Assembly: GCA_021414245.1 (NCBI GenBank)
Contig: JAIOOU010000004.1
Coordinates: 372,001-436,000, forward strand
DNA length: 64,000 bases
Direction: 5' to 3'
DNA from: Chloroflexota bacterium
Lineage (GTDB): Bacteria > Chloroflexota > Anaerolineae > Anaerolineales > Villigracilaceae
Part shown: one piece after another, positions 2,382-19,032 of the stretch
How positions within the stretch are numbered: position 1 is the first letter of the stretch
How the letters are laid out: each line of letters begins with the position of its first letter
Made by a program: the position numbers and the translations under genes
The notes under the pieces: model-generated
Seen by the model: the letters and a program-made list of their open reading frames with translations, nothing else
Databases searched by the model: none
What the model was told of the DNA's origin: nothing

Positions 2382-4061
2382 TTATTCATTAAGTTCCCGG
2401 ATGAACTTTTCCTTGTTCGCTGAGCGGGCCGTTTTTCCGCTGGATGTCTTAACGATCCATTTTTCCCCGACCACCTTGACGTGCCTGAGCGCGATGGCAG
2501 AGCTTTTCGTCACATGCCTGCGGATCGCATCCGCAATGACTTCCTGTTCGGCCGGGTCTTCACTATCCGCCTCGGCAATGATGACCACTTCCTCGGTGCC
2601 GGCTTCTTCATCGTACAGGCCGAAAGCCACCGTGCGGCCGGGATGCACGCCGGGCACTTCGCTGGTCAATGATTCCAGATCCTGGGGGTAGATGTTTTTT
2701 CCGCCCACGATGATCATGTCTTTTTTTCGCCCGGAAACATACAGTTCGCCGTTCGCAAGATAGCCGTAATCGCCGGTCAGATACCAGCCGTTGCGCAGGG
2801 CGGACTCGGTGGCATCGGGCCGGTTGTAATAGCCCGTCAGCATGCAGTTGCTTTGCAGCATGATCTCGCCGACCAGCCGATCCGGGATGTCCTCGCCGTT
2901 CTCGTTCACGATGCGGACCTTTGTGTTGTCGAGCGGACGTCCGGAGGAAAGCATCTTCATCGCCGGCCGGCCAGCTGTCGGCGGGGTCGCGACGCGATTC
3001 GTCATAAAGGATGCGCGGTCAATCTCATCGACAGCCGGTCCGTTTTCCAATGAACTTTGCGTGACCCCGAAGACATTCTCCGCCATGGCGTAGGAGGTTT
3101 GCAAAGCCTGCGGACGCAGGCCGAACTTTTCGAATTTTTCCGCGAAAAGGCTGTGGCTCTCCGCATGAACCGGTTCGGAGCAGTTGATGATCGCCCGCCA
3201 GGTGGACAGGTCCACGCCTTCCAGGTTGCGCTCACGGATCTTGCCCGCGCAAAAATTGTAGGCGAAATTTGGAAGCCAGCTGAGCGTACCCTTGTATTGC
3301 GAGACGGACTGCATCAGCTTGTAGGGCGCGCGCACCCAGTCGAACGGGGACATCTCCACGACCGGCACGCGCAGGAGGATCGGCATGAGAAAACAGGAGA
3401 TCAGTCCCATGTCGTGATAAAGGGGCAGCCAGGAGACGATCACATCCTTCTCCGGGTCGAGCTGGATGGCCCGGCTGTATGCCTGCAGTTGATTGAGAAC
3501 CGCCTGATGCGAAAGCGCCACACCCTTTTGCAGGCCGGTGGTGCCGGAGGAGTGCTGCAGCAGAACAATGTCATCGGGCCCGGCCTTCATGCCGGGCAAT
3601 GATTCAAGATCGGGTTCGGTTTGCGGTTCGATGGCGCCGGTGACGATCACTTTGCGGACCGAATCGCCGGGCACGAGAGCCGAACGCGCTTCGGATTCGA
3701 ATTCCGCGGAGGTGATGATCGCGGATGGTTTGGTGATCGAGATCAGGGAGGCCAGGTCGGTGCGGTATCGTTCCGGCGAAAGTTTTTCGCTCAGGAAAGG
3801 CATGATGGCTGGAATCGCGCCGTGCAGAACTGCGCCCCAAAAGGCGAAGACCAGATCCTGTCCATGCTCAAGGATGAGCAGGATCACTTCACCGGGCTGG
3901 ATTCCCTCGCGGGCATACGTCAGCGCATATTGATTCGCCCCCAGGACCAGCTGCCGATAGGTGAGCGGCTGGTCGGCCTGACCGGCATGCTGCAAAATAA
4001 TACTGACCCTTTCAGGGACTTCCAAAAAGGAACGCTGCAGCAGATTCGGAAAAGTAGTCAT
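2382..4061 (-). CDS. Acyl-AMP ligase, fatty-acyl-AMP-ligase (FAAL) type; DltA-position enzyme
   Basis: ANL-superfamily enzyme that should activate a carboxylic acid as acyl-AMP and load it onto the carrier protein encoded just upstream. Visible are the P-loop LLQHSSGTTGLQKG (about residues 170-183), the FAAL-like block WLPLYHDMGLI, the NCSEPV and YAMAEN segments, TGDYGYL, and the hinge/C-terminal block SGRKKDMIIVGGKNIYPQDL. At 559 aa the length fits FAALs. The WLPLYHDMG pattern fits FAALs better than D-alanine ligases (DltA), so the substrate is probably not D-Ala, but it cannot be read from sequence. The ATG immediately follows the stop of the carrier protein gene. Last gene of the operon. 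Confidence 0.88.
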   Translation of the reverse strand: MTTFPNLLQRSFLEVPERVSIILQHAGQADQPLTYRQLVLGANQYALTYAREGIQPGEVILLILEHGQDLVFAFWGAVLHGAIPAIMPFLSEKLSPERYRTDLASLISITKPSAIITSAEFESEARSALVPGDSVRKVIVTGAIEPQTEPDLESLPGMKAGPDDIVLLQHSSGTTGLQKGVALSHQAVLNQLQAYSRAIQLDPEKDVIVSWLPLYHDMGLISCFLMPILLRVPVVEMSPFDWVRAPYKLMQSVSQYKGTLSWLPNFAYNFCAGKIRERNLEGVDLSTWRAIINCSEPVHAESHSLFAEKFEKFGLRPQALQTSYAMAENVFGVTQSSLENGPAVDEIDRASFMTNRVATPPTAGRPAMKMLSSGRPLDNTKVRIVNENGEDIPDRLVGEIMLQSNCMLTGYYNRPDATESALRNGWYLTGDYGYLANGELYVSGRKKDMIIVGGKNIYPQDLESLTSEVPGVHPGRTVAFGLYDEEAGTEEVVIIAEADSEDPAEQEVIADAIRRHVTKSSAIALRHVKVVGEKWIVKTSSGKTARSANKEKFIRELNE

Positions 4062-4310
4062 TTATTTTTGGCGGGAAACGATCAAGGCTGTCAGCTGGGA
4101 CAAGTTGTCGAAGGTCTGCGCATTCAACTCGGTGTCCTCGATCCGGACGCCGAAGGTGTCTTCCACAAAAAGGGCCAGGTCCATCAAACTGAACGAATCG
4201 ACCAGCCCGCTCGAGATCAGGGCCTCATCGGGTCCGATCACTTTTTTTGCCTGCTTCAGGATCTTTTCCGCGATGAATTTTGCAAGTACGGAGGTGATTT
4301 CTTCGGTCAT
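4062..4310 (-). CDS. Acyl carrier protein (DltC-like position)
   Basis: Acidic 82-residue carrier protein. The phosphopantetheine attachment site is the Ser in GLVDSFSLMDL at about residue 40, in the usual place at the start of helix II. It would hold the acyl group made by the adjacent FAAL-type ligase as a thioester and hand it to the MBOAT protein. ATG 4310 is chosen because an AAGGAG lies about nine bases upstream. The longer reading frame (to 4421) overlaps the preceding lipoprotein gene and shows no family similarity. It lies between the SGNH lipoprotein and the ligase, spaced 0 bases from the latter. Confidence 0.9.
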   Translation of the reverse strand: MTEEITSVLAKFIAEKILKQAKKVIGPDEALISSGLVDSFSLMDLALFVEDTFGVRIEDTELNAQTFDNLSQLTALIVSRQK

Positions 4311-4354
4311 GGGTAAATTCTCCTTGTAATTGATGCCGTCATTACAACGACAGC

Positions 4355-5278
4355 TTATTGGGCCAGCCCCGTGCGCATGGCATCCAATACCTGCAGGGCG
4401 GTCAGGTTGCGCCAGGGCCACGCGCTTAACATGACCTTGGGGTCGTCAAAGAAATTCCTGCTGAATGATAAATGGAAACCGTCATTTAAACCGGTGTCGA
4501 ATCCGTGATTAGGGAGGGGTTGGGCCGCGGCCCAAAAATTCCAAACGGGAATGTCAAATTCATTGGCGATCATGGCAATTTCGGCATTGATGGCGTTGTT
4601 GCCTTCCTTGTTGTCCGCCTTGGTTCCAAGCACAGGAACGATGCCCTGCGAGATCGTGTACGCGACGATCTGGCGCATGTACTTGCCGTACTCCTCGGCG
4701 GTCCGTTGTTTGAAATTGGTCTCCATGCTGATGAGTGCCACACTCGGTTTGTTGAGCCGGTATTCGCAGGCCAGCGGAGTTTCGCCGGCATTGCATTGTT
4801 TCGGGTCCGCGCGCAGGGGGGAAAGCACAGCGGCAACGTTGAAGCCATCCTTCACCGCCAGGCTTTGCCTGGAGAACGAACCTTGATAATAATCGATCGT
4901 GGCCTGCAGTCCCGCATGTTCATCTCCGAGACTGTATGTACCCGCGTGGTCAAAATCAACAAGGAAGAAGTCGGTGCTGGTCTGGCAATCGCCGACCTTT
5001 GAAAAGGCCTGGGGGTTGTTTCCCAACTCCAGTCCGTGCCGATAGATTGCGCGGGCGGTGTCACTGACCGCGGGGACAATGGGCAGAGTCATCCATTCAT
5101 CGGCTGTCAGGGTCGGGCGGGGTGTGGAAACCGGAGCCGCAGTGGATGTCTCCGTCGCTGCAGGTGCGGCCGCATCCGGTGTGGATGAATCCGTGCCCGC
5201 GGCCGGCGTCTGCGCGCTGCTGCAGGCGGATAAAATTGCAAAAATTGTAAGCAGGTACACGAAACGAACCTTAACCAT
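4355..5278 (-). CDS. SGNH-like lipoprotein with Cys in place of the catalytic Ser
   Basis: Secreted lipoprotein: signal peptide with lipobox ILSAC at about residue 19, then a Ser/Thr/Ala/Pro-rich linker to about residue 60. The rest resembles a GDSL/SGNH esterase fold: a block I-like KVGDCQTST near residue 95, a mid-domain SMETNF/VLGTKADN region, and a C-terminal NDGFHLSF that supplies a DxxH pair. Block I reads GDC where SGNH enzymes have GDS. The protein may use Cys, or may be a non-catalytic binding subunit. Position in the operon, after another SGNH protein and before the carrier protein, suggests a role on the outer face in acyl transfer to a polymer. Confidence 0.7.
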   Translation of the reverse strand: MVKVRFVYLLTIFAILSACSSAQTPAAGTDSSTPDAAAPAATETSTAAPVSTPRPTLTADEWMTLPIVPAVSDTARAIYRHGLELGNNPQAFSKVGDCQTSTDFFLVDFDHAGTYSLGDEHAGLQATIDYYQGSFSRQSLAVKDGFNVAAVLSPLRADPKQCNAGETPLACEYRLNKPSVALISMETNFKQRTAEEYGKYMRQIVAYTISQGIVPVLGTKADNKEGNNAINAEIAMIANEFDIPVWNFWAAAQPLPNHGFDTGLNDGFHLSFSRNFFDDPKVMLSAWPWRNLTALQVLDAMRTGLAQ

Positions 5279-5315
5279 TCAAAACTCCTGATGCATTCTT
5301 TTGTTCAAGATCTGT

Positions 5316-6422
5316 TCATTTGCACATGCCGGGCAGGACGGATGCGATCCGGCCGGCCAGCAGGCTTTCCCCATTTGGGGTCAGATGGATCGCGCTGTTG
5401 GTAAATTCATCCACCGGCACAAGGTCCCATAGATCAAGATAATGCCAGCCGTTCCTACCGCTGAGCCCCGCCATCATATCACGGTACCGGTCATAGGCCC
5501 ATCGCGGGTAAAAGAAATTATAGCGGATGTCGCCATTCGCACCGGGGCTGATCAGCATTGGCTCGTTGACGAGCAGGACCGGCGTTCCATCCACGATTCG
5601 AAAACCGGTTTCAAGCGCATTCAGCGCCAGGCTTTTTTCATCGAGCACGGGCGGTTCGGCTTCGCGGAATTTTGGATCAGCTTCCAGGTCTGTCTGGGCG
5701 GGCGTGTAATCGGCTGGATAGGTCTGGTCAATGCCGGTGGCTGCCCACATCACGCCATACAACTGCAGGCGGAATACATCCGCCAGTGCCCGTCGCTGCC
5801 CGGGGATGGACCTGTCCCATGCAGATGGCTGTACAAAGGCCGGATCCTGCGGATCAAACTCAAGCCCGTAGCTGCCCTGCAGACCAAGGAGAGCTTCGCG
5901 GTTGTTGGCGACCAGCGGCGAAGCGATCTGTTTTTCCAGCGGGAATGCCTCCAGGGTTGTCAGCCAGATGACCAGGTCGGGCTGATATTTCATCCCGTAC
6001 GAAAGAAGGAGGGCATCCTTGGTCAGGGATATGGTTGGATATCCAAGATTGTATACGTTGACCTGTTTTCCACAGGCGGATAGATTTGCAGAATTAAGCT
6101 GCCCGGAAAGGGTCTCTTCCGGCTTGAGCAGGGTGCCCCAAACAGAGGAATCGCCGATCAACAGGACGCGAAATTCATCGCCCGGTTTTTGTCCACTGTT
6201 AATGACATGCGATGCAAACATGGCGTCCAGATTAAAGAGGCTGAGGTTGTATGCCTGCGCGGAATTCTCGCCGAAGGGCAGGCGCTGCCTGCCGGGGAAG
6301 ATCACGTTATAAGCGCTGACCTGTCCTTTCCCGGGTTGCCAGAGCGCGAAGATCCCATTGAGGAGGATAAAGAGCGTGAACCCTTTGATCAGGATATTAA
6401 TGAATTTGATGTCGTTTTTCAT
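5316..6422 (-). CDS. Membrane-anchored SGNH protein (DltD-like position)
   Basis: A 368-residue protein with one N-terminal membrane anchor (about residues 10-28) and an outside SGNH domain. Block I is VLLIGDSSVWG, around residue 92, with the nucleophile Ser in GDS. The C-terminal block is SAIHLTPNGE. The residue three before that His is Ser rather than the usual Asp, so the triad is not canonical. In dlt and PatA/PatB-type systems such a protein takes the acyl group from the MBOAT channel or microprotein and passes it to the polymer. Starts seven bases after the MBOAT gene, so co-transcribed. Confidence 0.75.
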   Translation of the reverse strand: MKNDIKFINILIKGFTLFILLNGIFALWQPGKGQVSAYNVIFPGRQRLPFGENSAQAYNLSLFNLDAMFASHVINSGQKPGDEFRVLLIGDSSVWGTLLKPEETLSGQLNSANLSACGKQVNVYNLGYPTISLTKDALLLSYGMKYQPDLVIWLTTLEAFPLEKQIASPLVANNREALLGLQGSYGLEFDPQDPAFVQPSAWDRSIPGQRRALADVFRLQLYGVMWAATGIDQTYPADYTPAQTDLEADPKFREAEPPVLDEKSLALNALETGFRIVDGTPVLLVNEPMLISPGANGDIRYNFFYPRWAYDRYRDMMAGLSGRNGWHYLDLWDLVPVDEFTNSAIHLTPNGESLLAGRIASVLPGMCK

Positions 6423-6429
6423 GATTCGA

Positions 6430-7860
6430 TCATTTCAGGCCGAACAATTTCGAAAACACCAGCAGTGAAACGGATGTGGAGGACAAGGCAAAGAATATCC
6501 AGCCCAATGCGACATAATGGAATGTGATCAGTGCCCCGCTGACGGCGAGCAGGTTTTTGCGCAGGGGAGTGGTCCCCCAGGCTGCGGCGCGCGCACGCGT
6601 GAGATCGCTCCAGCGGTTGTGGATGAACAGACCCAGTCCGTGCCAAAGGCCCCAGAGTGTAAAGTTCCAGGTTACGCCGTGCCAGAAACCGATCAGCACC
6701 ATGGTGGCGACCTGGGTCAGCAGGATCATGGCAGGCATGGGCAGCGGCCGATTCCACGAACGCAGCCAGCGCGTGACCGGATTGAAGAAATAAGCCCGGA
6801 ACCACTGGGTCAGGGTCATGTGCCAGTTGTTCCAGAACTGGGTCAGGTTTGGTTTTAGATAGGGTGCCGAAAAATTTTCGGGCAATTGGAAGCCCAGCAA
6901 CCGGGAAGTCCCGATCGCGATGTCGGTATAGCCGCTGAAGTCAAAATAGATCTGCAGCGAGTAGGCATATAACAGAATCCAGGTCCAGCCGGCGCCGTGG
7001 ACCTGGAGTGCGTTGGTGTCATTTAAGGCGATCAGGGCCAGTGCGTCCGCGACCACAAATTTTTTGAACAGCCCCATCGTAAATCGTTGACCTGCGATGA
7101 GCAGATCGTCATTTTTGGGTTTGTCCTGCGGCCGGCGCAGATCCTGGATGAATCTTTCAATGCGATCGATCGGTCCCGCCGTAAAGGACGGGAAAAAGAT
7201 CACATAGGTCACATACTCGGCAAGGTTGGCGGCCGGCAGGCGTCCCATTTGCCGGTCCCGCAGCGTGTGCAGGATGCGAAAGGCAACATATGAAAAGCCA
7301 AGCCAGCGCAGGTCGGCCACCTTTGCCTGCGCCAGGGATTGATGGGTCAGGGAACGAAGCCCGTAACTGACCCAATAGGTCAGCGCTGGGACTTTGATGG
7401 CGAGAAAAACAATGATCAGCCCGATGATGCTGATGGATAAAAATGCCGCATTAAAACGCATCAGACGTGTCGTCAGCAGAAGGAGTATTCCCGCCGCACC
7501 CAAAACAAATAGGAAGATCCCGGTTTGTGGCGGACGCGCACCGGTCAGGATGGAATCAAATGGAAGAAAACGGGTCAGGTTTAACAACAGGGCCGTGCCG
7601 GCGATCACGGCTGCGGCCACCCAATTCCCCCGCTCCCGCCGTGTCTCTTCCGGCGCGGTGATGTACCAGCTGAATACCGTGATGACGAGCGTCGCCGCCG
7701 GGAGCCAAAAGTCAAAACCTCTTAGCGGAAGAGCAGGCTGTAGCCAGAATATGACCAGGATGCTGGCGATCAGCAGGAAATGGGAACGGCCGCGTTCGCG
7801 CATGACCAGTCCCCAAAACAGGGCGGCGGCCGCAACGATCAGGATTTGACCGATCGCCAT
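6430..7860 (-). CDS. MBOAT-family O-acyltransferase (AlgI/DltB-like)
   Basis: Polytopic membrane acyltransferase of 476 residues with about ten to twelve hydrophobic segments. MBOAT signatures are FSGYTDIAIGTSRLLGF, FWNNWHMTLTQWFRAYFF, and the catalytic His region IGFWHGVTWNFTLWGLWHGL. In DltB the enzyme forms a funnel through which the cytoplasmic carrier protein delivers the acyl thioester. AlgI and PatA act in the same way for acetate. Here a carrier protein and a ligase are encoded in the same operon, which points to the DltB rather than the acetyl-CoA mode (inference). ATG 7860 comes two bases after the stop of the microprotein gene 7862-7993. Confidence 0.9.
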   Translation of the reverse strand: MAIGQILIVAAAALFWGLVMRERGRSHFLLIASILVIFWLQPALPLRGFDFWLPAATLVITVFSWYITAPEETRRERGNWVAAAVIAGTALLLNLTRFLPFDSILTGARPPQTGIFLFVLGAAGILLLLTTRLMRFNAAFLSISIIGLIIVFLAIKVPALTYWVSYGLRSLTHQSLAQAKVADLRWLGFSYVAFRILHTLRDRQMGRLPAANLAEYVTYVIFFPSFTAGPIDRIERFIQDLRRPQDKPKNDDLLIAGQRFTMGLFKKFVVADALALIALNDTNALQVHGAGWTWILLYAYSLQIYFDFSGYTDIAIGTSRLLGFQLPENFSAPYLKPNLTQFWNNWHMTLTQWFRAYFFNPVTRWLRSWNRPLPMPAMILLTQVATMVLIGFWHGVTWNFTLWGLWHGLGLFIHNRWSDLTRARAAAWGTTPLRKNLLAVSGALITFHYVALGWIFFALSSTSVSLLVFSKLFGLK

Positions 7861-7861
7861 G

Positions 7862-7993
7862 CTAGAACCCTTGATAGATCCAGGTTGGGCTGCTGTCTGC
7901 CGTGAAGATCACCAGGGCGATCAGGATCAGACAGAAAAGCAGGGCCCACAGGTTTTCGCGGGTGAGGATGCGTTTCAAGAGATTATTGGGCAC
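7862..7993 (-). CDS. DltX-like single-pass microprotein ending in IYxxF
   Basis: A 43-codon ORF that ends one base before the MBOAT start. Translation gives a short basic N-terminus (LLKRILTREN), one strongly hydrophobic helix (about residues 15-31), and a short outer tail ending WIYQGF. Gram-positive DltX is about 50 residues, has a single membrane helix, and ends in a very similar FIYxxF tail whose Tyr is proposed to carry the D-alanyl group between DltB and DltD. Size, topology, C-terminus and position all agree. Start GTG 7993 overlaps the lipoprotein stop by 11 bases. An in-frame ATG at 8014 would give 50 residues. Neither has a clear ribosome binding site, so the start is uncertain. Confidence 0.75.
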   Translation of the reverse strand: MPNNLLKRILTRENLWALLFCLILIALVIFTADSSPTWIYQGF

Positions 7994-8369
7994 CGCAAAC
8001 CAGCCAGTTGCCATTCTGTTGCACCACCCGATAGGTGCGCGTGGACAGATCCAGCTCCTGGTCTTCGCCGTTATAACTAAGGACCAGTTTTCCAGTGCAT
8101 GTCACCAAAGCGGTATCGCCATCCGTGCCGGACTGGCTGCAGGAAAGACCGTCGACAGTGGCGGTCACAGCCTGCAGGGAATCCAGCTCGGTCAGGGCGG
8201 ACGATTCCCAATCCGCACAGGACAGCGCGGAAAGACCGGCCTCATCATTCGCGGCGAGTGCGGTAATATACCCTTCGACCGCATCCTTTGCCCCCGTTGA
8301 GCCGGCGGACGATCCGCAGGCCGATAAAAGTATGCTCAAGGCGAGCATGGATAATAATAGGTAACGCAT
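7983..8369 (-). CDS. Small lipoprotein with NTF2-like domain, first gene of the dlt-like operon
   Basis: A 128-residue lipoprotein: signal peptide MRYLLLSMLALSILLSAC, then a Ser/Gly linker and an NTF2/DUF4878-like alpha+beta domain (KDAVEGYITALAANDEAGL at the start, repeated YRVVQQNGNWLVC at the end). ATG 8369 follows a GGAGG at good spacing, so the longer frame up to 8474 is not used. The extended -10 promoter at 8406-8414 lies upstream. Its 3' end overlaps the microprotein start, so it is probably translated and transcribed with the acylation genes. Function is unknown. Such domains often bind a ligand or scaffold a complex outside the membrane. Confidence 0.7.
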   Translation of the reverse strand: MRYLLLSMLALSILLSACGSSAGSTGAKDAVEGYITALAANDEAGLSALSCADWESSALTELDSLQAVTATVDGLSCSQSGTDGDTALVTCTGKLVLSYNGEDQELDLSTRTYRVVQQNGNWLVCGAQ

Positions 8370-8405: not shown

Positions 8406-8434
8406 ATTATAGCATAAGGGATTAAGCGCATAAA
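8406..8434 (-). promoter_or_regulatory. Extended -10 promoter of the dlt-like operon
   Basis: On the minus strand a perfect TATAAT (8406-8411) is preceded by TGC, making an extended -10. A weak -35 (TTTATG, 8429-8434) lies 17 bases upstream. The start codon of the first gene (8369) is about 37 bases downstream of the -10, with a GGAGG between. The divergent gene at 8498 starts nearby. Confidence 0.6.
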
Positions 8435-8497: not shown

Positions 8498-9199
8498 TTG
8501 AACAACTATCTGGCCCTCATCATCACGTTCGTCATCTCCCTGGTTTTCCTGCGCTCGATGGATTTCATCGCCCAGCGCGGCTGGATGGATGGAAAGCTCA
8601 GCCGCAAGGTGATCCACATCGGCACGGGACCGATCTTCGTGCTGTGCTGGTTCCTGTTTCGCGACACGCCGGATGCGCGCTGGCTGGCAGCTTTGGTGCC
8701 GTTTGCGATCACCATTCAATTCGCACTGATCGGGCTTGGAATCATGAAGGATGAAGCTTCTGTAAAATCCATGTCCCGCACCGGCGACCCGCGCGAGATC
8801 CTGCGCGGGCCGTTATATTACGGGATCATGTTCGTGGTGCTGACCCTGGTCTATTGGAAGGATTCCCCGATCGGGATCATCGCCCTGATGATGATGTGCG
8901 GCGGCGATGGAATTGCCGATATTGTCGGCCGGCGCATTGCCTCACCGAAACTGCCGTGGAGCAGGGAAAAATCCATCGCGGGAACCGTCAGTGTTTTTGC
9001 GGGCGGATGGCTGATGGCCGCGGTTTTGATCTATATCTATGTGGCCGCCGGCGTATTTGCCGGTCCGTTCATGAATTATCTTTTACCGATCACGTTCATC
9101 GCGCTGGCGGGCGCGATGGTTGAGTCCCTGCGTTATAAGGATATCGATAATGTGACCATGACCCTGGCCTCTGCCCTGGTCGGCAGTCTGTTCTTCTAA
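8498..9199 (+). CDS. Polyprenol/phytol kinase-like or CDP-diglyceride-type integral membrane enzyme
   Basis: Integral membrane protein of 233 residues with six to seven hydrophobic segments. The segment SRKVIHIGTGPIFVLCW near residue 35 matches the RKxxHxxxG signature of the dolichol kinase / VTE5 phytol kinase / DGK1 family, and MMMCGGDGIADIVGRRIA matches the later GDGxAxxxGRR block that binds CTP or lipid phosphate. These proteins phosphorylate a lipid alcohol using CTP. The start is TTG 8498, supported by AGGAG eight bases upstream. Transcribed away from the dlt-like operon. Substrate cannot be told: isoprenoid alcohol or diacylglycerol. Confidence 0.75.
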   Translation: MNNYLALIITFVISLVFLRSMDFIAQRGWMDGKLSRKVIHIGTGPIFVLCWFLFRDTPDARWLAALVPFAITIQFALIGLGIMKDEASVKSMSRTGDPREILRGPLYYGIMFVVLTLVYWKDSPIGIIALMMMCGGDGIADIVGRRIASPKLPWSREKSIAGTVSVFAGGWLMAAVLIYIYVAAGVFAGPFMNYLLPITFIALAGAMVESLRYKDIDNVTMTLASALVGSLFF

Positions 9200-9234
9200 T
9201 AGAAAATACCGCCCATCGGGCGGTATTTTCTATT
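9198..9234. terminator. Bidirectional intrinsic terminator
   Basis: Perfect 17-base inverted repeat (9198-9214 with 9218-9234) with a 3-base loop, GC core and AT flanks giving U-rich ends on both strands. It lies between convergent genes and overlaps both stop codons region, so it serves both. Confidence 0.9.
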
Positions 9235-9973
9235 GAGTTTTTTCGTCTTCCTTTTCGAATATCATCACCCGGTATGCCTCGGCGAAATCGAGGCCCTTTT
9301 CCCTGCCCTCCTCCTTCGCCCAATCGCGCATCCACTTGTCCACTTCATTGACTTCCACCTGGCTGGCGTGTTTCTTTAAGGCTTCGATCTTGGTCTCGAT
9401 GGTTTCGCTGATGTCGATCCAGGTATCGTTCTTTTCCGACCCATGAACATACAGCCGTTTGACGTTGTGCGGTTCAAACCCCGCCTCAAGCAGATCGGTG
9501 AAAATGAGCCGGGTCCCTGCTGACGGGAAGACCGCTTCACAGGCGGCCTGCGCGGCGGCGCGGTGATCGGGGTGATTGACATACTCATTGCCGTAAAACC
9601 AGGCCTCGGGATTTCCAGCCAGGACCACATCCGGCTTGTGTTGACGAATGATGCGCGTCAGGTCCCTGCGCAGGGCGATGGATGGCTCGAGTTCGCCATC
9701 CGGGTAGTGCAGAAAAACCGTCTGCCTGACGCCAATGGTTTCGTTGGCTGCCAGTTGTTCGGTCTCGCGCAGACGCGCCAGCTCGGCTTTGTAGTCCCTG
9801 CCTTTGGTCACATCATTGGACCCGGAGTCGCCGCTGGTGATGACCACGGAGATGATCTCACAGCCCGCCTGCGCCCATTTCGCCAGTGTGCCTGCAATTG
9901 AAAATTCCTGGTCGTCAGGGTGGGCCTGAATGGACATCGCTGTTTTGGGAAGGTATTCCTTTTCGTTTGTCAT
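9230..9973 (-). CDS. PIG-L family (LmbE-like) deacetylase
   Basis: Zn-dependent N-acetyl deacetylase family that removes acetyl from GlcNAc-containing small molecules or lipids. The signature AHPDDQEFSIAGTLAKW is near residue 15 (the HPDD metal-binding motif), and a later NHPDHRAAAQAACEAV supplies the HPDH metal ligand. Length (247 aa) is normal. ATG 9973 is chosen. A start at 10000 would run into an inverted repeat and adds residues unlike the family. Stands alone on its strand. The substrate is unknown; mycothiol-type or sugar-nucleotide substrates are possible. Confidence 0.87.
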   Translation of the reverse strand: MTNEKEYLPKTAMSIQAHPDDQEFSIAGTLAKWAQAGCEIISVVITSGDSGSNDVTKGRDYKAELARLRETEQLAANETIGVRQTVFLHYPDGELEPSIALRRDLTRIIRQHKPDVVLAGNPEAWFYGNEYVNHPDHRAAAQAACEAVFPSAGTRLIFTDLLEAGFEPHNVKRLYVHGSEKNDTWIDISETIETKIEALKKHASQVEVNEVDKWMRDWAKEEGREKGLDFAEAYRVMIFEKEDEKTQ

Positions 9974-9985
9974 GGGCCGGATTTT

Positions 9986-14856: not shown

Positions 14857-15876
14857 TTATGGAAGTGTGTCTATTTCCCCGGTCAGAATATCGTTCTTTA
14901 TCAGGTTTATCCTGCTCTCCTGCTCTGGCGACAGCAGTCCATGAAAGGGCGCCAGATTCTGGATGCCCTCAGCCAGTCCAAATTTGTACTGTTTTCCTTC
15001 CCAGCGGCCCAGGTTGGAAAGGGTCGCCCCAGCCAGCAACATCTGTGGAACATCCTGAACATTACTTGTAATTACCGCGCCTGGTGCAAGATGATTTAGG
15101 TCTTCGATCCAACCCAGCGTGAAAATCCCGGCTTTTTCGGCCTGCGCGTGGACATCCGTTCCTGCGGATCCTGCCAGGACCAGAATCACATCAACGCCGG
15201 AGTTGATCTGTTTTTGTGCAAGTTGTTGCGCCTTTTCAGCATCTGTGAAATCCCCGACCCAGTCAATACTTACCTGTATAGAGGGATCTTCAGCCTGCGC
15301 ACCGCGCTCAAACAGGGCGGTGATTTCATCACCGCTGATGTTTTCCGCGCCGCCCAAATAACCGATATGTTTTGTTTTTGTTTTGATCGCCGCAATGCTT
15401 CCCAATAAATATGCCATTTCCCCTTCGCGCAATGAAAGACTTCCCAGGTTAATGTTATTTCCCTCATATCTGCCCGCTATGGCAAAATCCGTCTGTGGGA
15501 ATTCGGCAGCCACTTTTTCCGCCGCGGGAATGAATTGGTTGCCATGCCCGATGATGAAATCATAGCCCTCCAGCGCATATTGGCGAAAGACCTTTTCAAA
15601 ATCGTTTTCCGGAACATTTTCGGAATAGGCGATATCTGCGCCCAACTTCTTTTTAATAAGGACTATTCCCTGATAGCCGGAACGCGTCCAGCCGTCGGCC
15701 TCGATGGAACGCGGCAGCAGAATTGCGACACGAAAGGGATGTTTTTGAGTCGATGTGCCTTCGGAAGATATGGAGCTTGGCTGGCAGCCAAATGATCCGA
15801 AAAGGATCACCGCAACCAAAAGCACACCGGCAGTCAGTCGTTGTGATTTTATTTTGACCCCAAATTTTCTTTTCAT
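14857..15876 (-). CDS. BMP-family (PnrA-like) substrate-binding lipoprotein
   Basis: Lipoprotein with lipobox FGSFGC (about residue 30) and a periplasmic-binding fold of the basic membrane protein / PnrA family, which bind nucleosides or related small molecules. Typical segments: FRVAILLPRSIEADGWTRSG, GYDFIIGHGNQF, IGYLGGAENISGDE, GVDVILVLAGSAGTDVHAQA. ATG 15876 is preceded by GGGAG. No ABC ATPase or permease lies nearby. Instead the gene is followed 50 bases later by a dCache histidine kinase, so it may act as a receptor for signalling rather than transport. Confidence 0.85.
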   Translation of the reverse strand: MKRKFGVKIKSQRLTAGVLLVAVILFGSFGCQPSSISSEGTSTQKHPFRVAILLPRSIEADGWTRSGYQGIVLIKKKLGADIAYSENVPENDFEKVFRQYALEGYDFIIGHGNQFIPAAEKVAAEFPQTDFAIAGRYEGNNINLGSLSLREGEMAYLLGSIAAIKTKTKHIGYLGGAENISGDEITALFERGAQAEDPSIQVSIDWVGDFTDAEKAQQLAQKQINSGVDVILVLAGSAGTDVHAQAEKAGIFTLGWIEDLNHLAPGAVITSNVQDVPQMLLAGATLSNLGRWEGKQYKFGLAEGIQNLAPFHGLLSPEQESRINLIKNDILTGEIDTLP

Positions 15877-16422
15877 GGCGTCTCCCGTTCGAATGAAATC
15901 CTCCATTTCGTATCACCTCTGTTAAACAGCTCACTGAAAAACTGAAGATCCATTGAAAGTAACCGTGATTTCATATAATCATCTATTGTGGAGAAAAAAA
16001 CCGCCTGCACACAAGAGGTGAACACTCCCGGCATTGTTGGGGCCTGTTTCTTTTTTTTGTAATCCACCATAAAAATTCAGGATGGCCTTGCGGGGATAAA
16101 AGGCCATCCTGAATGATTTGCCCAAGCTTGTAATATGTTTGACCGAAAAAAAGGGGGATCCCTGGGCCTGATCTGACGCCAATGTTCCAAAAACAGAACA
16201 AGTCACAGGAATATTTTGTGTATAAGTGAGCTGTGCTTTGTTCTTTTTTCATTTTCCGCTCCTCCAATCAAGTTTTCAATCGCAGGAAGTGCAGGATGAA
16301 AAACGAGAATGCTATTAAAAAAGTATAGCATCCATGTGGTATTAAATAAATATCACTTTCATCTTAACTTTCAATAAAAGACTGCCTTCAATTAAGAACA
16401 GATCAACGATTTTTTTCGGATA
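15877..16422. other. 546-base intergenic region
   Basis: No convincing gene. It holds the terminator at 16068-16114, a T8 run on the minus strand near 16050, and an AT-rich 120 bases (16300-16420). Short open frames here have no family-like features and differ in composition from neighbours. The promoter for the lipoprotein/kinase pair should lie in its left part. Confidence 0.5.
16068..16114 (-). terminator. Intrinsic terminator downstream of the second MBOAT/SGNH pair
   Basis: Perfect 14-base inverted repeat (16075-16088 with 16101-16114, 12-base loop). On the minus strand the stem is followed by TTTTTAT. It is 300 bases past the SGNH stop, the nearest upstream gene on that strand. Confidence 0.7.
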
Positions 16423-17346
16423 TTAGTGAATAATCGCCTGAAGCGCCTCGCCCAGGATTTTCGTGAATTTCGCCTTTCCATCTGCGGTAAGGTGGACCCC
16501 ATCCCGGAACAGATCCGGGCCGAGACGGTCATCGTGGGCGAAATCAAGCAGGATTACATTATTTTGTGAAGCATAAGCGGACAGGAATTGTATATATTCC
16601 CCGACTGCCTGTGGTTCGGAGGCCGGATCGGAAAAGTCCTTTACCTTTGTCCGTACCAGGATGAGTTGAATGTTGTTGTCACGACAGAGCCGGATGATCT
16701 CTGGTAAAAATGATCGCGGTAATTGGCGATTGAAATCCAGGTTTGCCGCCTTGTAAAGCTGGTCGTCAGCGGTCCGGATCGCGTCCCCTTGAAGGTTATT
16801 CTCAAAATCATCCTTGTTCATGGCCCATGCCATGGCTGTATCTGTGCATTCAAGATCGCAATCCAAGAACATCCGGGGCAGAATGGTGCGATTGTGTTTG
16901 TTGATGGTCTGCCAGATAAGCTGATGAGCGCCGTATGGCGGGAAATATTGATCGGCCGCCTTTTCGATGCTGCTCATCTGATTAATATATGAAAGCTGAA
17001 GGAGCAGTTTTTCATCGGAGCCGGCCAATTCGTCAATTTGTTTCAGATAACTGCCGTCCACCCTGAAATCGGGTGTGGTGAGCATGGTGTCACGAAAAAA
17101 GATAATCAGGTATAAGGGTTTGAATTCCCCCGGTACGATCACATTTTTTGCAAGGAGGTACCATGTCGCTGAAGCTGACCCTTGAATGCTGATGCTGTAG
17201 ACGCTCTTGCCAGTGCCATTGGCAAGAGCGTCCGGGTCCACGCCGTAATGTAAAACTGAATCGCCGGCCAGAATGATCCGGGGGTGCTTTTGATTGATGT
17301 CTTTCTGATAATCCATGCGATGGGATGGGTCAAAGTGCGGGCCCAA
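16423..17346 (-). CDS. SGNH/GDSL-type protein paired with MBOAT; signal anchor separated by an in-frame stop
   Basis: SGNH hydrolase-like domain: block I IILAGDSVLHYGVD near residue 25 and the C-terminal DLFRDGVHLTADGKAKF with a DxxH pair, so the triad looks complete. In MBOAT/SGNH pairs such as AlgI-AlgX or PatA-PatB this protein completes O-acylation of an exported polysaccharide. The listed TTG start (17346) is the first in the open frame. The same frame continues upstream through proline-rich sequence to a TAA at 17389-17391, and beyond it to ATG 17445 followed by a hydrophobic stretch typical of a signal anchor. Without readthrough the domain would lack an export signal. Either a broken gene or a sequence error. 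Confidence 0.7.
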   Translation of the reverse strand: MGPHFDPSHRMDYQKDINQKHPRIILAGDSVLHYGVDPDALANGTGKSVYSISIQGSASATWYLLAKNVIVPGEFKPLYLIIFFRDTMLTTPDFRVDGSYLKQIDELAGSDEKLLLQLSYINQMSSIEKAADQYFPPYGAHQLIWQTINKHNRTILPRMFLDCDLECTDTAMAWAMNKDDFENNLQGDAIRTADDQLYKAANLDFNRQLPRSFLPEIIRLCRDNNIQLILVRTKVKDFSDPASEPQAVGEYIQFLSAYASQNNVILLDFAHDDRLGPDLFRDGVHLTADGKAKFTKILGEALQAIIH

Positions 17347-17452: not shown

Positions 17453-18838
17453 CTAGAATGCGAAATATATAAAATCAGGCGAGGCGGAGTTGATATAGAC
17501 GATGATCGCCAGACAGGCGAGGGCGTAATACGAAGCGTTAAGCCACGAACCCGGCCCCGCCCAACGGTCGATTAATAGTTTGGCTGCAAGGGGAAAGCTG
17601 TAAAACAAAGTCAGTGAAAGACACATCAGGGCGACGATGACCTGTTCCCTTCCTCCTCCAAAAGGCCCATGGACCACAGTCTGCCAGATCCAATCCAGGG
17701 AGGGGGCGCGGAAAATGATCCAGCCAATGATAATTAAAATAAAGGTTGTCAGCCATGCTGTGATCCTTCCGGGATAACGGGCCGTTTTTAAATCCGCGCG
17801 GGGGATGAAAATCTGGTAAACCGCGATGAGGATACCGTAGTAAAGACCCCAAATTATGAATGTCCAGCCGACGCCGTGCCAGATCCCGCTGACCAGCATG
17901 GTTATGATGGGAGGAATGGATTCGCTGATCCAGCCGGGCCATTGATGCTGTTTCAACAGCATCCGACGCAGGGGAAAGAAGATGTAATCACGCAGCCAGA
18001 TTGAGAGCGTGATATGCCAGCGATTCCAAAACTCGGAGGGGCTTAGGGCAAGATAGGGTTTGTTGAAATTTTCCGTCGTTTCAAATCCCAGCAAAAATGC
18101 GAAGCCTCGTGAGAGGTCGGTGTATGCGGAGAAATCCGCCAGGATCTGCAGGGTGAAGGCGATGCCGCCGGTCAATAGTAATAATTTTGTCGGTGCCTGC
18201 ATGGTAAAGACTTGATCCACGATTGCCTTGATGCTGTCTGCTATGACCACTTTTTTGAAAAATCCCATGACCAGCAATGGCCAGGCGGAGGTGAAATTTT
18301 CGATTTTCCAGGTGCGGGCTGTTTCAATTTGCGGAATAAGTTTTTGCGGACGATCAATCGGTCCGGAAATCACCTGGGGAAAAAAAGAAACATACAGCGC
18401 GAAAGTCGTAATGTCATGGGTCGGTTTGAAGGCGCCGCGTGAGACATCCAGCATATATCCCATTTTTTTCAGCAGGTAAAAGGACAAACCGGCCGGGAGG
18501 AGGATGTTTTTCAGGAAAAAATCCCCTGTATCTGCAAAGAATAGCGTGGCAAATAAATGGAAATATTTGGCCAGGGCCAGCAGCCCAAGATTGGCGATCA
18601 GGCTCAATCCCAGGTAGCGCTTCGCCCTGCTCGGGTCACGTTCAATGCCGATTGCCAAATAGTAATCAAGGATTGTGGAGCCGCCCAGTACCATTGTATG
18701 CCAGGGTGCAACCCAGCCGTAGAATGTGTAACTTGCCAGCAATAAGATGATGTTTTGTGTGCGCGGATTGCGGGATATCCAATACACTGCCAATATGGCA
18801 GCGAAGAAAATTAAAAAATTGTGGCTGGTAAAACTCAT
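17453..18838 (-). CDS. MBOAT-family O-acyltransferase (AlgI-like), second copy
   Basis: Polytopic 461-residue acyltransferase with ten or more hydrophobic segments. Signatures: FSAYTDLSRGFAFLLGF, FWNRWHITLSIWLRDYIFFP, and the catalytic His region VSGIWHGVGWTFIIWGLYYG. Closest in style to AlgI, which with a partner SGNH protein O-acetylates exopolysaccharide. ATG 18838 begins MSFTSHNFL, the usual N-terminus of AlgI-like proteins. A longer frame to 18907 would cross a hairpin. Unlike the copy at 6430-7860 it has no carrier protein, ligase or microprotein beside it, so it may use acetyl-CoA. Confidence 0.88.
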   Translation of the reverse strand: MSFTSHNFLIFFAAILAVYWISRNPRTQNIILLLASYTFYGWVAPWHTMVLGGSTILDYYLAIGIERDPSRAKRYLGLSLIANLGLLALAKYFHLFATLFFADTGDFFLKNILLPAGLSFYLLKKMGYMLDVSRGAFKPTHDITTFALYVSFFPQVISGPIDRPQKLIPQIETARTWKIENFTSAWPLLVMGFFKKVVIADSIKAIVDQVFTMQAPTKLLLLTGGIAFTLQILADFSAYTDLSRGFAFLLGFETTENFNKPYLALSPSEFWNRWHITLSIWLRDYIFFPLRRMLLKQHQWPGWISESIPPIITMLVSGIWHGVGWTFIIWGLYYGILIAVYQIFIPRADLKTARYPGRITAWLTTFILIIIGWIIFRAPSLDWIWQTVVHGPFGGGREQVIVALMCLSLTLFYSFPLAAKLLIDRWAGPGSWLNASYYALACLAIIVYINSASPDFIYFAF

Positions 18839-18869
18839 GGGCTGGATTTTACACCAGACTTTTAAAGTG

Positions 18870-18904
18870 AGAGAGCCGGGCCTGCCCAGCCCGACTCTCT
18901 TTTG
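18870..18904. terminator. Hairpin between HD-GYP and MBOAT genes
   Basis: Eleven-base inverted repeat with one mismatch (18870-18880 with 18890-18900). TTTT follows on the plus strand. On the minus strand the following sequence is CACTTTAAAA. It lies 130 bases past the HD-GYP stop and just before the MBOAT start, so it may end the former transcript. Confidence 0.45.
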
Positions 18905-19032
18905 CAAAGGAGGAGAAGAAAAATCACCTTACATCTGCAACTTTATCATTTTCCTTCGCAGAGTACTTGACGCCCGCTCTACGCCTGTCCGCCGTTTCCC
19001 TGACGTTTTGGACATTTACGGGTGGCATTTTT

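Follow-up and report, generated by a model that had tools for sequence, protein, structure and literature searches.

A seven-gene operon of a Chloroflexota bacterium resembles the Dlt system and probably encodes a ligase-fed acyl relay

The window analyzed here (64,000 nucleotides, G000:C7:372001-436000) comes from a Chloroflexota bacterium (GCA_021414245.1) with a genome of 3.87 Mb that is 98% complete, and it contains an operon that resembles the D-alanylation (Dlt) pathway, with which Gram-positive bacteria couple D-alanine to their cell wall. All seven open reading frames (ORFs) of this operon were found on the minus strand, running from 8369 to 2382, in agreement with the original prediction of seven same-direction genes of Dlt-like classes. 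In gene order, they encode a small lipoprotein of 128 amino acids (7983..8369), a DltX-like microprotein of 50 amino acids (7862..8014), a DltB-like membrane-bound O-acyltransferase (MBOAT) of 476 amino acids (6430..7860), a DltD-fold SGNH protein with an N-terminal helix (5316..6422), a second SGNH-fold protein that is a lipoprotein with GDC at its active-site motif (4355..5278), an acyl carrier protein (ACP) of 82 amino acids (4062..4310), and a ligase of the fatty acyl-AMP ligase (FAAL) type with 559 amino acids (2382..4061). The junctions are tight, measuring -32 bases (lipoprotein/microprotein), +1 (microprotein/MBOAT), +7 (MBOAT/SGNH), +37 (SGNH/GDC), +44 (GDC/ACP), and 0 (ACP/FAAL).

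An extended -10 promoter element, TGCTATAAT, lies ahead of the first gene on the minus strand (8406..8414) and is an exact match to TGnTATAAT. Elements of this type are unremarkable inside the window (2 found, 0.93 expected); ahead of the first gene, where a promoter for the operon had been proposed, the element is conserved. Exact TGnTATAAT was present in 18 of the 27 regions upstream of the first gene (the window and 26 relatives), in 13 cases located 41-45 nt before the start codon, and mononucleotide shuffles gave an expectation of 0.11 across the 27 regions, the sequences being related and not independent. A strict -35/-10 scan found no site ahead of the first gene. At four loci (L041, L046, L048, and L073), similar stretches containing GCAATGAC occur between the promoter and the first gene and resemble an inserted small repeat.

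The gene set recurs in Anaerolineae. The DltD-like gene was detected in 41 of 61 relatives, own genome included, and pieces of all seven genes were present in 22 of 40 fetched regions, counting one with a broken microprotein frame (L042), one with several broken frames (L068), and one cut by contig ends (L072). A second sample consisted of named loci, the best 80 of 320, with record titles that read Anaerolineales, Anaerolineae, or other Chloroflexi/Chloroflexota almost throughout, along with one "uncultured bacterium". All seven genes are conserved together in 27 of the 45 named loci that have >3 kb of upstream and 6.5 kb of downstream flank; these 27 include L086 and L098, which have broken frames, and L153, in which the ACP and FAAL genes are ∼3 kb off. 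For 20 of the 80 named loci the gene was also sampled at an unnamed locus, so the two sets of counts overlap. Incomplete loci among the 45 lacked the ACP and FAAL (seven loci), the GDC protein, ACP, and FAAL (three), the microprotein, ACP, and FAAL (two), the FAAL only (two), the lipoprotein and GDC protein (two), or the lipoprotein, microprotein, and MBOAT (L118), and L121 retained the GDC gene alone beside the DltD-like gene. A phylum-wide draw yielded matches to the DltD-like protein at E 1e-3 in 34 of 301 cases; 26 were strong and all from the class of the window, and eight were weak (best E 2e-10) and confined to the nucleophile region. The cultured Longilinea arvoryzae KOME-1 carries genes of the system, with the ACP and FAAL ∼3 kb off behind an insertion. 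Searches of plasmids by tblastn for MBOAT-FAAL neighbors outside Chloroflexota gave 130 MBOAT records and 67 FAAL records, among them a 212-kb plasmid of Leptolinea sp. HRD-7 that has the lipoprotein, microprotein, and MBOAT together (L202:6377-8356), lacks an annotated SGNH gene behind the MBOAT, and has a FAAL ∼33 kb away; in three non-Leptolinea plasmid records, to which this statement is confined, no MBOAT was annotated within 6 kb of the FAAL. Viral contigs were also considered as relatives, and none of the eight pattern matches was a true one.

The first lipoprotein has the sequence LSAC, whose Cys (Cys18) is kept in 27 of 27 aligned rows. It matched no Pfam family, and the NTF2-like label originally attached to it went unconfirmed, the Rv0361_Cterm match of 30.2 bits being under the cut-off of 37. 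The microprotein that follows has one hydrophobic stretch and a C-terminal WIYQGF, with Tyr47 and Phe50 kept in each of 37 rows; tails of WIYQGY (two) and WIYQNF (one) were seen among the named loci. A comparison of 36 distinct sequences showed variation at the first, second, and third codon position in 16, 7, and 30 of 31 codons, respectively, and mean pS and pN were 0.694 and 0.175. The microprotein is a real gene under purifying selection at the protein level, and these values rule out a chance ORF. The ATG at 8014 assigned to it may be too far upstream; a TTG at 7978 (giving 38 amino acids) may be the start because homology begins near there. The DltX model (PF12459, cut-off 25) did not match three microproteins of the FAAL system, including that of the window, at any E value up to 10, whereas two true DltX proteins of relatives scored 34.4 and 29.6 bits. 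Alignment of the microprotein with DltX by hhalign gave a probability of 87% across 23 columns. Within the codons for the invariant YQGF (7862-7885) is a purine-rich stretch, AAGGG, where ribosomes may bind for translation of the MBOAT gene.

The MBOAT matched PF03062 at 73.6 bits (cut-off 27), and its His347 and His394 are present in 42 of 42 rows, two of these rows being MBOATs with a fused tail. It scored 216.6 bits against the DltB equivalog TIGR04091, below the cut-off of 375; the two fused-tail MBOATs reached 176.4 and 164.8 bits. The only solved structures matched by sequence at E 0.001 were two DltB sequences. A tree placed the MBOATs with a split tail beside DltB (99/95), a placement that we treat as a lead only because long branches meet there, as the program itself warns. 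Two additional MBOAT-SGNH pairs flank the operon (window 17453-18907 with 16423-17346, and L004:16099-17550 with 15048-16082), giving three MBOATs within ∼21 kb. Their fused tails read FIYFAF and VLYAKF, and each of the two MBOATs is beside an SGNH protein, for which an AlgX match was clear and a DUF1574 match marginal. The FIYFxF kind of MBOAT adjoins the operon in several relatives.

Both SGNH-like proteins gave GDSL profile matches that were sub-threshold only, and we examined them further by structure models of single chains. The model of the DltD-like protein (mean pLDDT 88.8) matched DltD structures with Z 14.4-15.0 over 273-289 residues, and the top row was CgnD with Z 15.2 over 218 residues. 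The DltD rows align longer than any other row among the matches listed, and the DltD fold is favored because its Z values are tied with that of CgnD while its coverage is longer. The DltD family (PF04914) had no match in the own genome, and a search of solved structures by sequence returned nothing at E 1. Each of the 41 DltD-like proteins compared has Ser92, in the GDS motif, and His346.

The GDC lipoprotein was modeled with a mean pLDDT of 84.1 as an SGNH esterase fold, the best Z being 15.7 to a CE3 esterase with many rows tied; the search of solved structures by sequence gave only a match at E 0.44. Cys98 occupies the nucleophile column, where 128 aligned copies have Cys in 119 and Ser in nine (97 and eight, respectively, of 105 distinct copies). 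All 86 copies of the named loci that run in the operon direction have Cys, and copies in the opposite direction comprise eight with Ser and one with Cys. This prevalence of Cys is a hint that the protein does something different from simply hydrolyzing an ester. Instead of carrying acyl groups, the protein may be an editing esterase, comparable to Ape1, which is the third gene product of pat operons according to portions of PMC12148441, or a binding protein without activity. The esterase fold and the retention of the block V Asp-His (94 of 119 Cys copies, nine of nine Ser copies) are consistent with that assignment, the near-uniform Cys at the nucleophile column argues against it, and we give it slightly less than an even chance. 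It is compatible with the operon being an acyl relay.

The two remaining genes encode the predicted supply side. The ACP matched PP-binding (PF00550) at 30.6 bits (cut-off 20.8), has Ser39 in a DSF motif, and at 18.8 bits was below the cut-off of the DltC equivalog TIGR01688 (52.35). The ligase matched AMP-binding (PF00501) at 158.6 bits (cut-off 29.9). Its best NCBIfam matches are fatty acyl-AMP ligases, all 25 matches listed being below the curated cut-offs, and with 365.5 bits against the FAAL subfamily NF006624 (cut-off 600) it is FAAL-like and outside that subfamily. The best DltA match of the own genome (TIGR01734, cut-off 559.85) reached 173.3 bits and was located elsewhere. A stretch of the ligase that aligns gap-free to the 3kxw chain is missing in six DltA proteins of relatives, and we take it to be the published FAAL-specific insertion. 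The view that the ligase is FAAL-like rather than DltA was borne out. Its probable cargo class is a matter of this family resemblance and not of the Asp in its HDMGL motif. No family model of DltA, DltB, DltC, DltD, or DltX passed at the window locus.

Canonical dlt genes do exist in some relatives, and the hint in the original prediction that Chloroflexota lack D-alanylation chemistry is wrong for these: DltD (PF04914) was found in four of 61 relatives and DltA over its cut-off in three. The dlt loci L196-L198 have the ORF order DltD, DltX, DltA, DltB (with a second DltA in L196 and L197) and DltX tails of EFIYQGY or DFVYQGF; a crude motif look found no DltC in them. Three of the four dlt-bearing relatives (G012, G023, and G026) also carry a short FAAL system (L063-L065) composed of the microprotein, MBOAT, SGNH protein, ACP, and FAAL. 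The dlt genes of G023 are fragmentary, with a DltD piece of 34.4 bits and a DltA just below the cut-off, and the fourth relative, G013, has dlt and no DltD-like match of the FAAL system. The side-by-side presence of the two systems suggests that they have a different cargo or acceptor. This arrangement bears on the possibility that the operon is a Dlt pathway with a replaced ligase, in which the substrate of the FAAL-like enzyme is D-alanine or some other amino or hydroxy acid and the target is still a teichoic-acid-like polymer. That possibility is consistent with the DltB-like MBOAT, the DltD-fold protein, the DltX-like tail, and the ligase Asp common to the DltA motif, as well as with a partial match to the glycerophosphotransferase family in the own genome (24.7 bits, threshold 22.1) and three LCP-family matches there, which make wall-linked glycopolymers possible and say nothing beyond that. 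We consider it improbable, given the FAAL-type insertion and HDMGL motif of the ligase and the redundancy that such a pathway would create in G012, G023, and G026, where separate DltA/DltD matches stand beside the short FAAL system.

The association of the FAAL with the relay genes was assessed in a single sample of 200 genomes from the class (DltD-like E up to 1e-40, FAAL E up to 1e-140). The DltD-like gene was present in 53 genomes and the FAAL in 52; both occurred in 50, the DltD-like gene only in three, the FAAL only in two, and neither in 145 (Fisher p 6.6e-41, uncorrected for descent). Of the 50 genomes with both, 31 have the two genes on the same contig and no more than 12 kb apart; the other 19 do not, perhaps in part from contig breaks. 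The surroundings of the unlinked FAALs, viewed for 15 of the 19, had an ACP near eight and a second microprotein and MBOAT near two (L210 and L211). The ten longest ORFs near these 15 FAALs contained no polyketide synthase (PKS) or nonribosomal peptide synthetase (NRPS) domain by Pfam; seven matched housekeeping or other families and three matched nothing. In L211 (genome G213), a 595-amino acid ORF without a Pfam match (L211:6099-7886) lies between the second microprotein-MBOAT pair and the ACP-FAAL genes, at the position where a DltD-like gene would be expected. Judged from these gene contents, the FAAL is best assigned to the relay. The least probable alternative, that the ACP and FAAL work for a soluble pathway to a lipid or natural product and just happen to lie beside an MBOAT relay that uses acyl-CoA like PatA, could appeal to typical bacterial FAALs, which portions of PMC8460268 place always with PKS/NRPS genes, and to the 13 of 45 named loci without ACP and FAAL near the DltD-like gene, and it is disfavored by the 50 of 55 genomes with either gene that have both (19 of them unlinked), by the lack of PKS/NRPS domains in the ten longest ORFs near 15 unlinked FAALs, and by the separate microprotein, which the relevant portions of PMC12148441 describe only for the carrier-fed Dlt pathway.

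Collectively, we regard the operon as probably an MBOAT-SGNH acyl relay whose cargo, most likely a fatty acyl group, travels from the cytoplasm to an acceptor beyond the membrane; the reading that we favor is a second Tyr-shuttle relay beside Dlt, fed by the FAAL. The anatomy of the operon, that is, its gene order, selection, conserved residues, predicted folds, and co-occurrence, is well supported. The proposal that the same relay delivers another acyl group is favored by the recurrent gene set, the genome-wide co-occurrence of FAAL and DltD-like genes, the DltD-type fold, the DltX-like tail, and the FAAL-type insertion, and for the chemical steps, the fatty cargo, the topology, and the acceptor we infer the following scheme by analogy to Dlt as recounted in portions of PMC12148441. 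The FAAL would make an acyl-AMP and load the dedicated ACP, and the type of the ligase makes a fatty acyl group likely. The MBOAT would accept the acyl-ACP at the cytoplasmic face and, using His347/His394, pass the acyl group to Tyr47 in the outward WIYQGF tail of the microprotein. This tail would hand the group to Ser92 of the DltD-like protein, which, possibly with the Cys98 lipoprotein, may transfer it to a target at the surface, whether a glycan, a glycolipid, or a protein. A bolder version, in which a long-chain fatty acyl group is exported by way of the MBOAT and a Tyr-ester microprotein and the Cys SGNH lipoprotein then acts as a thioester carrier to lipidate a Chloroflexota surface polymer, is speculative and on balance rather unlikely.

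Several observations weigh against the relay reading. The ACP and FAAL are both absent near the relay genes in 13 of the 45 named loci, and the FAAL alone in two more. The co-occurrence of DltD-like and FAAL genes is inflated by shared ancestry. In the alignment, the Asp of the ligase HDMGL motif falls opposite that of the DltA FDLSV motif, so this residue would also be compatible with an amino-acid cargo. The microprotein tail opens with Trp, whereas the acyl-shuttle hexapeptide published in PMC12148441 is FXYXXF and opens with Phe; the Tyr and last Phe agree in 37 of 37 rows. The block V Asp at His-3 is absent from all 41 DltD-like proteins, which have Ser (30), Thr (10), or Gln (1) at this site, and their catalytic triad is therefore unproven. 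Finally, part of PMC11035591 suggests that DltB may act on the acceptor directly and that the DltD domain may not be directly involved, so the Dlt model itself is not beyond dispute.

Outside the operon, a divergent gene for a hydrophobic protein (8498-9199), to which neither Pfam nor NCBIfam gave a match, and a gene for a PIG-L deacetylase (9230-9979) recur near it, in 32 and 25 of 120 loci, respectively, with some genomes counted twice.

The operon was compared with three known systems. Typical FAALs share with the ligase the FAAL-type insertion, the HDMGL motif, and a dedicated ACP; bacterial ones differ by their PKS/NRPS context, with a few FAAL-like domains in other contexts according to the same portions of PMC8460268, whereas here the context is an acyl relay. 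A word search of the review PMC11837247 did not find the word MBOAT, and no paper linking MBOAT and FAAL was found in the literature searched, which largely excludes subscription papers. PatA/PatB and AlgI/AlgX-type pairs resemble the operon in having an MBOAT, an SGNH protein, and a Tyr hexapeptide; they differ, as set out in portions of PMC12148441, in that their hexapeptide is fused to the MBOAT and no carrier protein is involved, an acyl-CoA donor having been shown for PatA. The same source states that MBOAT/SGNH pathways other than Dlt have neither a carrier protein nor a microprotein; the operon has both, with a different ligase type. The SGNH lipoprotein with Cys in place of Ser is unusual in its own right and open to testing, and the cultured strains KOME-1 and HRD-7 offer settings for testing envelope acylation in a poorly known phylum. 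The closest likeness is to Dlt, with which the operon shares a ligase, a carrier, an MBOAT, a separate one-helix microprotein with a C-terminal Tyr hexapeptide, and a DltD-fold protein in one operon, and from which it differs by the FAAL-type ligase, the two extra lipoproteins, and scores that pass no Dlt family cut-off. If the relay works as proposed, the Dlt relay would be a cargo-neutral export machine for acyl groups.

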